Below, piece after piece: positions 732 to 24,523 of a stretch of 64,000 nucleotides of DNA (the first letter of the stretch is position 1; every line of letters begins with the position of its first letter). The stretch lies in the NCBI RefSeq assembly GCF_018882085.1, contig NZ_JACVPB010000002.1:124425-188424 (forward strand), written 5' to 3'. Below the pieces are notes generated by a model that was given only the letters and a program-made list of their open reading frames with translations, was not told the origin of the DNA and did not search any database. A program made the translations under genes and the position numbers. Origin of the DNA: Polynucleobacter sp. AP-Reno-20A-A9. Its GTDB lineage: Bacteria > Pseudomonadota > Gammaproteobacteria > Burkholderiales > Burkholderiaceae.

Positions 732-1739
732 TTAGTCTTGCTTTCGTTGGTTCAGCGCTAACTCATAAGCTAGGCGTAAAGCCTCAAGCATACTGCCTGA
801 GTCAGCCACTCCTTTACCAGCAATATCCAAAGCGGTTCCGTGATCAACTGAGGTTCGGATAATGGGTAACCCCAAAGTGACATTGACGCCATTACCAAAA
901 GTAACGAACTTAAATGGCGCGAGTCCTTGATCGTGATACATCGCAACAAAAGCATCTACTTGTGCAATAGATTCTGGGTCGAACATCGTATCACCAGGAT
1001 AAGGACCGGAAACATGAATCCCCATCTTTTTAGCCGCTTCAATTGCTGGTGAGATGATGTCAATTTCTTCTCTACCCAAATATCCAGATTCACCTGCGTG
1101 AGGATTTAAACCGGCCATTCGAATAATCGGCTTAGTGATTCCGAATTTCTTCTGCAAATCTTGGTTAACGATTTGAATGGTTTCCAATATCAAGTCATAA
1201 CTCAGTGCTTGCGGAACACTTTTTAAGGGAAGATGGGTTGTGACAAGGGCAACACGCAAGTCTCTAGGTGCCTTGAGCCCCAAAAATCCTATGGGCAAAG
1301 GCGCGCACAACATCATCACCACATGAGAAACCTGGCAGCGCTGCGCTAGGTATTCTGTATGCCCTGTAAATGGTGTCCCAGCATCATTAATAATGCTTTT
1401 CTGCAGTGGCGCAGTCACCATGGCATCAAAACGCCCTTGCTGACAACCGTCAATTGCCTGATCTAAAAGATTCACTACATACTGTGCGTTTTGCGAATTC
1501 AAAGCCCCTGCAATGACAGGTGCTCCCAGTGGGATAGATTCAATTTGTAATCGACTAGACAGGTCTGGGCTAAGGCCCTTTGGCAATAACAATAGCTGAT
1601 TATTACCTAATAAAGTGATTCGAGCATCTGCATGCACACGTAGAAACTCAAGCGAAGCAGCTAAAGAAACTTCTGGTCCGATACCGGCTGGTTCGCCGGT
1701 AGTTACAACGAGATTAACGAGGTGCGCTACTTGCTTCAT
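732..1739 (-). CDS. pdxA: 4-hydroxythreonine-4-phosphate dehydrogenase
   Basis: PdxA oxidises 4-phosphohydroxy-L-threonine with NAD(P)+ in the DXP-dependent route to pyridoxal 5'-phosphate. The 335-residue length is normal. The N-terminal TTGEPAGIGPE segment (residues 13-23), the FTGHTEYLA segment with a conserved His (about 123-131), and the metal-binding His region MYHDQGLAPFK (about 267-277) are all present. The start overlaps the last 26 bp of surA, so the two are probably translationally coupled. It sits in the minus-strand unit lptD-surA-pdxA-rsmA. Confidence 0.97.
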   Translation of the reverse strand: MKQVAHLVNLVVTTGEPAGIGPEVSLAASLEFLRVHADARITLLGNNQLLLLPKGLSPDLSSRLQIESIPLGAPVIAGALNSQNAQYVVNLLDQAIDGCQQGRFDAMVTAPLQKSIINDAGTPFTGHTEYLAQRCQVSHVVMMLCAPLPIGFLGLKAPRDLRVALVTTHLPLKSVPQALSYDLILETIQIVNQDLQKKFGITKPIIRMAGLNPHAGESGYLGREEIDIISPAIEAAKKMGIHVSGPYPGDTMFDPESIAQVDAFVAMYHDQGLAPFKFVTFGNGVNVTLGLPIIRTSVDHGTALDIAGKGVADSGSMLEALRLAYELALNQRKQD

Positions 1740-23380: not shown

Positions 23381-23443
23381 GATTTCTCAAATTGTTATAG
23401 TCAAAAAAATTACTCCAATCAAATTACGTCCACCTTGGCCCTG

Positions 23444-23473
23444 CTTATATTTGCAAGCTCGCAGATTCTGCAA
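23444..23473 (-). promoter_or_regulatory. candidate rplM-rpsI promoter
   Basis: On the minus strand TTGCAG (23473-23468) and TATAAG (23449-23444) are 18 bp apart. The transcript would start near 23437, giving a 5' leader of about 57 nt before rplM. This is the best sigma-70-like match in the 160 bp between rplM and the upstream small-RNA terminator. Confidence 0.45.
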
Positions 23474-23539
23474 TTTACTTGGTACAACAAATTACCGCTG
23501 ACCGGCTCGGTAATTCAGTAAAGCCTTGAATTGTAACCT

Positions 23540-23568
23540 AAAAAAAACCCAGGAACGAGTCCTGGGTT
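23540..23568 (-). terminator. strong intrinsic terminator of the candidate small RNA
   Basis: On the minus strand AACCCAGGA and TCCTGGGTT form a 9-bp perfect stem with loop CTCGT. The stem runs into eight consecutive Ts (23547-23540, partly within the stem). No protein-coding gene precedes it on this strand, so it must end a non-coding transcript or an unrelated read-through. Confidence 0.8.
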
Positions 23569-23641
23569 GGAATCCACCTATGTTTGGGTGGAGGAGACAC
23601 TGGGAGGTAAGTCGCAGTCTTATACAAGACTGACTACCAAT
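23540..23641 (-). ncRNA. candidate ~102-nt small RNA with CCUCC motifs
   Basis: The 409-bp stretch between rplM and the OsmC-like gene holds an independent minus-strand transcription unit. A promoter (TTGCGT, 17 bp, TACAAT) would start RNA near 23641, and an intrinsic terminator ends it at 23540. Between them are a 7-bp hairpin CAGTCTT/AAGACTG (23615-23632), a single-stranded CCTCCC (23607-23602), CTCCTCC (23596-23590), and a second hairpin TCCACC/GGTGGA (23573-23592). No convincing open reading frame with a ribosome site is present. The CCUCC motifs match the anti-Shine-Dalgarno sequence, so pairing with ribosome binding sites of mRNAs is a reasonable guess. It might belong to a known betaproteobacterial sRNA family, but that could not be searched. 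Confidence 0.65.
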
Positions 23642-23647
23642 ATGGTT

Positions 23648-23676
23648 ATTGTATCCATATGCATGGTGCAACGCAA
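23648..23676 (-). promoter_or_regulatory. promoter of the candidate small RNA
   Basis: On the minus strand TTGCGT (23676-23671) and TACAAT (23653-23648) are separated by exactly 17 bp. It is among the best sigma-70-type matches I found in an intergenic region of this window. The start point would be near 23641. Confidence 0.6.
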
Positions 23677-23704
23677 GAAAATTGACCAAAATCAATATTT
23701 TTAT

Positions 23705-23720
23705 GTTGCTATGCAGCAAC
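23705..23720. repeat. inverted repeat upstream of the OsmC-like gene
   Basis: GTTGCT and AGCAAC form a perfect 6-bp inverted repeat around ATGC, 69 bp before the OsmC-like start codon and 29 bp behind the small-RNA -35. It could be an operator for either transcript. A GATAAT at 23750-23755 is a possible -10 for the OsmC-like gene but lacks a good -35. Confidence 0.3.
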
Positions 23721-23789: not shown

Positions 23790-24212
23790 ATGGAATGTCG
23801 AGTAAGTTGGTTGGGTAATGGCGGCATGGCTTTTTCCGCAGAAACTGGCAGCGGCCACCTCGTAAACATGGATGGCGCCCCTGAAGCTGGTGGCAAAAAC
23901 CTCGCTCCGAGGCCAATGGAGCTGCTTTTAGCAGGTGCCGGCGGTTGCTCTGCATTTGATGTGGTTTTAATCCTACAAAGGGCTCGTCAGGCCATTAGTG
24001 GCTGTGAAGTGGCTCTCCAGGCTGAGCGAGCGACAGAAGACCCTAAAGTCTTCACTAAGATCAATTTGCACTTTACGGTCAAAGGAAAAGGCTTGGATCA
24101 GGCAAAGGTAGATCGCGCCGTAAAGCTCTCACATGAAAAATATTGCTCAGCTACGACCATGCTGGCTAAAACTGCGGAACTGACTTACAGCGTCGAAATC
24201 ATTGGGGAATAA
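23790..24212 (+). CDS. OsmC/Ohr-family peroxidase-like protein
   Basis: OsmC-family proteins reduce organic peroxides using two cysteines. Both are present: GAGGCSAFDVV (about residue 53) and HEKYCSATTML (about residue 117). The 140-residue length and the N-terminal MECRVSWLGNGGMAFSAETGSG place it in the YhfA-like branch of the family rather than classical Ohr. It stands alone between the candidate small RNA and rnpB. An AAGGG lies 9-13 bp before the ATG. Confidence 0.85.
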   Translation: MECRVSWLGNGGMAFSAETGSGHLVNMDGAPEAGGKNLAPRPMELLLAGAGGCSAFDVVLILQRARQAISGCEVALQAERATEDPKVFTKINLHFTVKGKGLDQAKVDRAVKLSHEKYCSATTMLAKTAELTYSVEIIGE

Positions 24213-24523
24213 GTGCAGAGTCAATCGATAAGCCGGATTCTGTCGCCTAGATTTGCATCTAGGGGCAATCATTCCTCTAGGCCGGCAGTTACCTGACGGC
24301 TCAAGCTCCCTACCCGCAGACTCAGCGGGACGCCTCATCGCCTGCTTACTTGGGATTGCTCCAGGTGGAGGTTACCGCGTTTCACCGTAACTAAATACGC
24401 TCGTCTCTGTGGCCCTATTCCTCACGTCGCCGTGGATGGCCGTTAGCCATCACCCTTCCCTATGGAGTCCGGACTTTCCTCCCCCTCAATAAAGAGGCGG
24501 CGATTGCCCAATTGACTCTGCGC
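24213..24523 (-). ncRNA. rnpB: RNase P RNA component, class A
   Basis: The catalytic RNA of RNase P, which trims tRNA 5' leaders. On the minus strand the conserved GAGGAAAGTCCGGACTCC lies near the 5' side (about 24485-24468), and AGAATCCGGCTTATCGATTG lies near the 3' end. Helix P1 is visible as an 11-bp perfect pairing of 24215-24225 with 24511-24521. The ends are set just outside P1 and are accurate to a few bases. It follows pyrC on the same strand after about 55 bp and abuts the stop codon of the convergent OsmC-like gene. Confidence 0.95.

Follow-up and report, generated by a model that had tools for sequence, protein, structure and literature searches.

A conserved, predicted RF02278 sRNA of Polynucleobacter with a PhaR-site match over its predicted promoter and candidate uptake-gene targets

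Described relatives and PhaR control

Rfam family RF02278 carries the name "Betaproteobacteria toxic sRNA", which is said to come from growth inhibition in E. coli, reportedly in work by Kimelman et al. in 2012. Among the closest described systems, S17 of B. pertussis represses at ribosome-binding sites (RBSs), and its pairing with BP2158 was shown by compensatory changes (PMC11722255). Loss of S17 raises 92 genes by the count of the abstract and 91 by that of the Results, and this set includes 32 transporter-related genes or operons. E. coli grew unimpaired in exponential phase with S17, and the authors speculate on a repressor acting at the S17 promoter (PMC11722255). In B. cenocepacia, overexpression of ncS27 slows growth and its silencing speeds growth; ncS03, ncS05 and ncS27 are raised 4- to 8-fold in glucose medium, and an upstream motif is common to three homologues, with PhaR unnamed in the main text (PMC5688073).

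A second set of likenesses concerns control. S. meliloti MmgR is under negative PhaR/AniA control (PMC8401924, PMC12542648). For Ralstonia eutropha PhaR the palindrome YTKNTGCRNYGCANMAR is given, with up to 3 mismatches accepted, and PhaR can activate too, as at phaP3 (PMC12849132). TG-N-TGC-N3-GCAA was found and footprinted for Herbaspirillum PhbF (PMC3206438). Features of relatives described in these papers are RBS pairing, slower growth on overexpression, and PhaR repression relieved by PHB. The main texts of PMC11722255, PMC5688073 and PMC4603805 contain neither phasin, polyhydroxy nor PHB, and PhaR is not used there as a gene name; in PMC7011215 the single occurrence of PHB is among the references. 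No description of an RF02278 link to PhaR, or of a role as nutrient-uptake brake, was found in these texts or among the titles of the open-licence papers listed.

Locus, family and anatomy of the RNA

The window is the whole stretch of 64,000 nucleotides that was analysed. An sRNA of about 103 nt is predicted at 23539..23641 (minus strand) from sequence and fold (z = -4.6), its start being placed from the promoter. The fold of -35.3 kcal/mol was equalled by 0 of 200 shuffles. The initial annotation had described a minus-strand promoter and terminator here, and both elements are present: -35 TTGCGT (23671..23676, minus strand) and -10 TACAAT (23648..23653, minus strand) are spaced by 17 bp, and an intrinsic terminator with a 9-bp stem followed by eight Ts lies at 23546..23568 (minus strand). 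The -35 shares only 3 of 6 bases with the sigma-70 consensus, and a promoter scan did not list the TTGCGT/TACAAT element. The stable, terminator-ended fold was likewise recovered, with three hairpins in total (5' hairpin, hairpin 1 and terminator) and not two. The CCUCCC and CUCCUCC motifs of that annotation are both found in the RNA. ORFs of 55 aa (plus strand) and 75 aa (minus strand), both with TTG starts, overlap the sRNA stretch.

The suggestion that the RNA might belong to a known betaproteobacterial family was borne out by the Rfam search. The core of Site 1, hairpin 1 and terminator (23539..23599, minus strand) matched RF02278 in cmscan at 52.8 bits, above the gathering score of 50 (E = 9.4e-8), and was the sole RF02278 match found in the source genome. 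The anatomy of the family (a CUCC element as Site 1, a hairpin and a terminator hairpin) is present, and membership is near certain. Since the gathering score is exceeded and the locus is conserved in the genus, it lies beyond chance; a chance promoter and terminator around no functional RNA is a reading of negligible probability, against which the Rfam match, the conservation and the compensatory changes described below all speak. Two other models scored under their cut-offs: anti-hemB RF02837, which is similarly CU-rich with a hairpin and terminator (33.8 bits, cut-off 49.5), and the alphaproteobacterial ar14 RF02344 (17.7 bits, cut-off 58.8). No model named MmgR or alpha-r8 was among the Rfam scan matches at E <= 1.

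Site 1, UGUCUCCUCC (23590..23599, minus strand), is the putative pairing element; its complement together with a start codon marks uptake genes. Positions 2-10 were invariant in 36 aligned copies, which were largely picked by the same motif. Within the RNA, UCCCAGUGUCUCC is predicted to be unpaired (0.93-1.0 per base), and the remainder of CUCCUCC lies inside hairpin 1 (23573..23592, minus strand). The loop of this hairpin is without the CCUCC called Site 2. Of the 24 copies that alignment A2 holds from other genera, 22 have the loop CCUCC, and some other subclades of the genus keep it partially; the window lineage has ACCCAAACAUAGGU in this region. Consensus folding of A2, which covers the order, missed the terminator because of misalignment. 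CCUCC in the hairpin 1 loop, with Sites 1 and 2 identical, defines the S17 subgroup, so that the window RNA is not filed as S17 type, and its working may be S17-like.

Upstream of Site 1, the linker UCCCAG (23600..23605, minus strand; unpaired probability 0.93-1.0) forms the end of an extra CCUCCC element and is variable in the genus. It is preceded by a lineage-specific 5' hairpin (23606..23638, minus strand), whose 3' arm ends in the ACC of ACCUCCC. The 5' hairpin and linker CCUCCC are mostly missing from other genus subclades. In 23 sequences, three pairs of the outer helix of the hairpin were changed on both sides. Cells changed on both sides numbered 10 in the whole structure (9 in the outer helix) against a shuffle mean of 2.2, a count reached by 0 of 500 shuffles, the structure having been derived from the same alignment as was tested (A1, the 5'-hairpin class, with L061 and L018 left out). 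Slid controls gave 0-3 such cells. By the weaker measure of pairs changed on both sides, 4 were found against a shuffle mean of 1.9, and this was reached by 19 of 500 shuffles. In the window lineage the loop anti-SD of the family is gone, and a 5' hairpin that shows compensatory changes has been added. Conservation of the sRNA in the genus, proposed earlier as a check, was found. CCUCCC itself is not invariant; variants in the genus are ACCACCC, ACCGCCC, CCUUCC and UCUCCC.

Compared with described RNAs, Site 1, hairpin 1 and the terminator are as in B. cenocepacia ncS03, ncS05, ncS27 and ncS62 (PMC5688073, PMC4603805); ncS27, too, is a longer RNA (92 nt), and it is processed. Unlike these double-hairpin RNAs, the window RNA is single copy, has lost Site 2 and has gained the 5' hairpin and CCUCCC. 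With S17 (PMC11722255) the likeness lies in Site 1, RBS pairing (predicted for the window RNA), a sigma-70-type promoter with TTGC at -35 and transporter genes among the known or candidate targets; S17 differs in being a 190-nt RNA processed to 67 nt, in its place by coq7 and in keeping Site 2. MmgR (alpha-r8) is likened by the proposed control, not by sequence: PhaR controls this sRNA negatively, and PHB metabolism is in turn subject to feedback from it (PMC8401924, PMC12542648). It is alphaproteobacterial, and the reported effect is on phasins and PHB.

Within the genus, RF02278 was matched in 55 of 61 genomes (source genome included) and in 50 of 51 good assemblies, with 38 above cut-off; two of the 55 (G032 and G056) have a weak divergent copy only. 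The sRNA is followed on the same strand by rplM (ribosomal protein L13; 22952..23380, minus strand; TIGR01066, 195 bits) and has a divergent OsmC-family neighbour (23790..24212, plus strand; PF02566, NF008009). At all 30 genus loci tested (L001-L030) the sRNA is flanked by rplM and osmC, one to either side. An RNase P RNA adjoins osmC (window 24213-24519, minus strand; RF00010, 240.9 bits). Between the sRNA and rplM (window 23381-23538, minus strand), conservation in 34 loci is 0.90-0.94, nearly the level of the sRNA, and the fold of the stretch before rplM is no better than shuffles (z = -0.38). Six genus genomes (L084-L089) carry a second, divergent RNA that contains TGTCTCCTCGGTACC, has a CCCCCGC terminator and matches RF02278 weakly (29-31 bits).

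RF02278 matched 99 of the 150 genomes of the order sample, and 94 of these are represented among the places listed. The counts rest on 147 of 150 such places, three weak ones (G077:C2, G164:C27, G171:C68) being left out. Among the matches listed, 44 of 94 order-sample genomes have a copy on the rplM strand, 72-430 nt upstream of that gene; for genomes with an above-cut-off copy the figure is 37 of 59, again among the matches listed. The place next to rplM is common to several families, and further copies lie elsewhere in many genomes. Paired RF02278-like copies a few hundred bases apart were seen at L198 (G103), L131 (G067) and L182 (G115). This shared place and strand, together with the conserved stretch up to rplM, would fit an RNA that does not act in trans and belongs to the rplM operon, as its 5' leader or as an attenuator product. 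Such a reading is very improbable: a terminator stands between the two, copies elsewhere are frequent, rplM was found in 7 of 120 stretches of a collection scan (among the matches listed, some stretches being short or ending near the match), and pairing with the rplM start region is weak (-4.2 kcal/mol).

PhaR-site matches at the predicted promoter

A match to the published PhaR palindrome with 2 mismatches, TTCTTGCGTTGCACCAT, lies at 23663..23679 (minus strand) over the predicted -35, which falls inside it; this is within the up to 3 mismatches to YTKNTGCRNYGCANMAR at a promoter that delimit the PhaR regulon (consensus from PMC12849132). The -10 begins 10 nt behind TTGCGTTGCACCA. A second match with 2 mismatches, TTGCTGCATAGCAACAT, is found 40 bp upstream (23703..23719, minus strand) and is not conserved through the genus. 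Sites of 2-mismatch grade number 8 in the 64 kb, two of them at this locus. The source genome encodes PhaR (PF07879, 105.8 bits; TIGR01848, 160.9 bits, cut-off 109.45), with phaB and phaR adjoined by the end of a PHA synthase gene. Two PhaR sites lie upstream of phaR, and 2 of 5 phasin genes have an upstream site at up to 2 mismatches (3 of 5 with TTGCRNTGCANCA). TGC-N3-GCA at the promoter, as in the window, is known from phaP1 and phaR (R. eutropha, PMC12849132; H. seropedicae PhbF, PMC3206438); these differ in being protein genes, and the term 'sRNA' is absent from the available text of PMC12849132. Two relatives were looked at in the comparison with S17. In L048 a PhaR-site match with 1 mismatch overlaps a promoter-like element at a distance similar to that in S17; in L039 the best match has 3.

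The published 17-mer was searched at up to 2 mismatches in the 150 nt upstream of each RNA copy. It was used because the shorter TGC-N3-GCA is raised downstream of the RNAs too (23 of 113 in PhaR-bearing genomes, among the matches listed) and has a high base rate (36 of 360 windows). A site was found upstream of 57 of 113 copies in PhaR-bearing genomes versus 3 of 34 in PhaR-less ones, among the matches listed; the controls gave 9 of 360 background windows (outer flanks of L031-L060) and 18 of 1470 shuffles of single letters. With the best copy per genome, the counts were 44 of 69 versus 3 of 25, and for copies next to rplM 29 of 37 versus 1 of 7, both among the matches listed. Since related genomes are not independent, a count by family is also given: 23 of 28 PhaR-bearing families have a site versus 0 of 9 PhaR-less families, among the matches listed, with the mixed family f43 set aside (its site sits in a PhaR-less genome) and a single f30 site counted that may fall in coding sequence. 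At 3 mismatches the figures were 78 of 113 versus 9 of 34 among the matches listed, with a background of 65 of 360. Families with PhaR and no site, among the matches listed, are f17, f19, f23, f38 and f46, f23 having the phasin-linked form described below. Of the three site-bearing PhaR-less genomes, G102 is complete, whereas the other two are 85-87% complete and have genus mates with PhaR.

The genus scan comprised 52 loci, without L083 (near a contig end, motif not found) and the weak, divergent L084-L089. A site at up to 2 mismatches was present at 42 of these, mostly at -80/-81 from Site 1. Its mean pairwise identity in 34 loci is 0.88, between variable neighbours of 0.51 and 0.58. The collection scan sought the site together with Site 1, a pattern that requires the site. 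TANNNT followed the site after exactly 10 nt in 106 of the 120 matches listed, as in the window, the spacing being free over 31 values. Paraburkholderia, Massilia, Zoogloea, Janthinobacterium and others are represented among the matches listed; of 80 titled ones, two are not Betaproteobacteria by title and one is named only Pseudomonadota.

Overlaying two separate searches placed RF02278-like RNAs behind phasin genes in five genomes of two families, f23 (G128, G171, G082) and f30 (G176, G134). These matches are weak (33-40 bits, under the RF02278 cut-off), start 0-66 nt behind a phasin-type stop codon and have phaR about 1 kb or less away. Phasin identity is above the Pfam cut-off in G128, G171, G082 and G176 and just under it in G134 (23.4 vs 24.9). 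In f42 (G186) the RNA is divergent to phaR, behind a PhaR-site match.

The same RBS-occluding RNA might instead be made without PhaR control, TTGC...GCA being the -35 of a constitutive or otherwise regulated promoter. The overlap of TTGC with the -35 fits this, as do the 10 of 52 genus loci whose upstream 150 nt contain no site at up to 2 mismatches (9 of the 10 genomes have PhaR) and the presence of TGC-N3-GCA upstream of 7 of 34 copies in PhaR-less genomes among the matches listed. Set against it are the skew of the 17-mer towards PhaR-bearing genomes and families, the phasin-linked copies, and TGC-N3-GCA itself, found upstream of 62 of 113 copies in PhaR-bearing genomes where composition-matched palindromes were found upstream of 1-7 of 113 (among the matches listed). 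We regard an sRNA without PhaR control as unlikely, and PhaR control of the window sRNA as supported by comparative evidence that is separate from the target evidence. PhaR, the PHB regulator, is a likelier cue than the OsmC and ribosomal-protein genes next to the sRNA.

Between the two PhaR-site matches lies a conserved dyad, TTGATTTTGGTCAA (23682..23695, minus strand), in a region with a mean pairwise identity of 0.875 in 34 loci. Its shape is presumably that of a CRP/FNR site. A regulator of this type acting here as the main input, with PhaR minor or absent, is improbable: the conservation and a symmetric change in L026 (TTGACCGCGGTCAA) are in its favour, but the dyad was seen in part of the genus.

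Uptake-gene complementarity and the proposed brake

In the genus, GGAGGAGACA followed by ATG after 1-9 nt gave 91 matches in 36 of 61 genomes, equal to 89 sites as variable gaps allow repeat matches of one site; the reversed control gave 2, and 25 of the 61 genomes were without a match. Among all 16 SWSW tetramers at the corresponding place, GACA accounted for 91 of 266 matches (expected 1 in 16; reversed control for all, 125), a share lowered by repeats of one GGAGGAGTCT site per genome. Fifty of the 91 matches were read: 44 were followed by an ORF of at least 60 aa and 6 were not, one of these (L238) being the strand opposite the genome's own sRNA. Of the 44 ORFs, 34 encode uptake receptors or permeases (21 TctC, 11 Peripla_BP_6 and 2 amino-acid permeases). 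The other ten are 4 molybdopterin-dehydrogenase flavoproteins, 2 molybdopterin oxidoreductases, 2 TPP enzymes, 1 2Fe-2S protein and 1 RNA methyltransferase. As a control, 5 of 20 other SWSW matches had an ORF of at least 60 aa (4 of at least 100 aa); one (L265) is uptake receptor-like by eye, and one (L279, with GGAGGAGACT) is, as are some of the targets, a flavoprotein gene. Independent gains are fewer than the target count because many of the targets are orthologous.

The source genome has six copies of the 9-mer GAGGAGACA, which alone shows no excess over the reversed control there (6 vs 6); the excess of the complement emerges once the start codon is included. Two occurrences are RBSs, one for a Peripla_BP_6 receptor gene and one for a TctC receptor gene; the predicted sRNA-RBS duplexes have 11-12 bp, at -20.7 and -22.4 kcal/mol. 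One is opposite the sRNA itself, one lies inside a gene, one is before a terminator, and one is in what we take by eye to be 23S rRNA. Target prediction by duplex energy in the window alone separated weakly (median -11.3 vs -9.9 kcal/mol for shuffled seeds, 64-kb start regions) and was set aside. Outside the window, at L226 (~1470-1512, minus strand), a 13-nt complement of the sRNA, TGGAGGAGACACT, lies directly before a terminator between two genes; it is possibly a 3'-UTR site or a sponge.

Targeting of uptake genes is supported by comparative evidence separate from that for PhaR. The initial annotation had proposed anti-SD pairing with the RBSs of many mRNAs. RBS occlusion by the relatives agrees with this, but pairing is likely to be more selective than mimicry of 16S rRNA, because, in the sample that was read, RBSs with the longer complement GGAGGAGACA belong mostly to uptake-receptor genes.

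Together these observations suggest a PhaR-repressed RF02278 sRNA that would be released by PHB and shut uptake genes. PhaR would repress the sRNA from the site over the predicted -35; PHB granules would titrate PhaR, and the sRNA would be derepressed. It would then pair through UGUCUCC(UCC) with the RBSs of solute-uptake genes and block their translation. Import of carbon and amino acids would in this way be coupled to the carbon in store, the sRNA serving as a carbon-satiety brake. From sequence we infer transcription at this locus, PhaR binding here with its sign, and repression of the named targets. The mechanism as a whole is probable, if slightly less so because some PhaR-less genomes carry TGC-N3-GCA at the -35.

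More broadly, and with belief that only somewhat outweighs doubt, RF02278 sRNAs may, throughout the Betaproteobacteria, make up the RNA arm of the PHB regulon. PHB granules would titrate PhaR off the -35, or a phasin transcript would give rise to the RNA at its 3' end, and the RBSs of carbon and amino-acid uptake receptors would then be closed by the RNA; PhaR would be the missing S17 repressor, and 'toxic' would describe a starved-uptake phenotype. A 2021 review states that the role of riboregulation in Cupriavidus necator PHB metabolism remains undeciphered (PMC8401924); if the proposal is true, such riboregulation would be supplied for Betaproteobacteria. The S17 repressor would become directly testable, with a bearing on PHB production strains, and the widespread "toxic sRNAs" would gain a physiological cue and a purpose, the feedback of stored carbon on carbon uptake.
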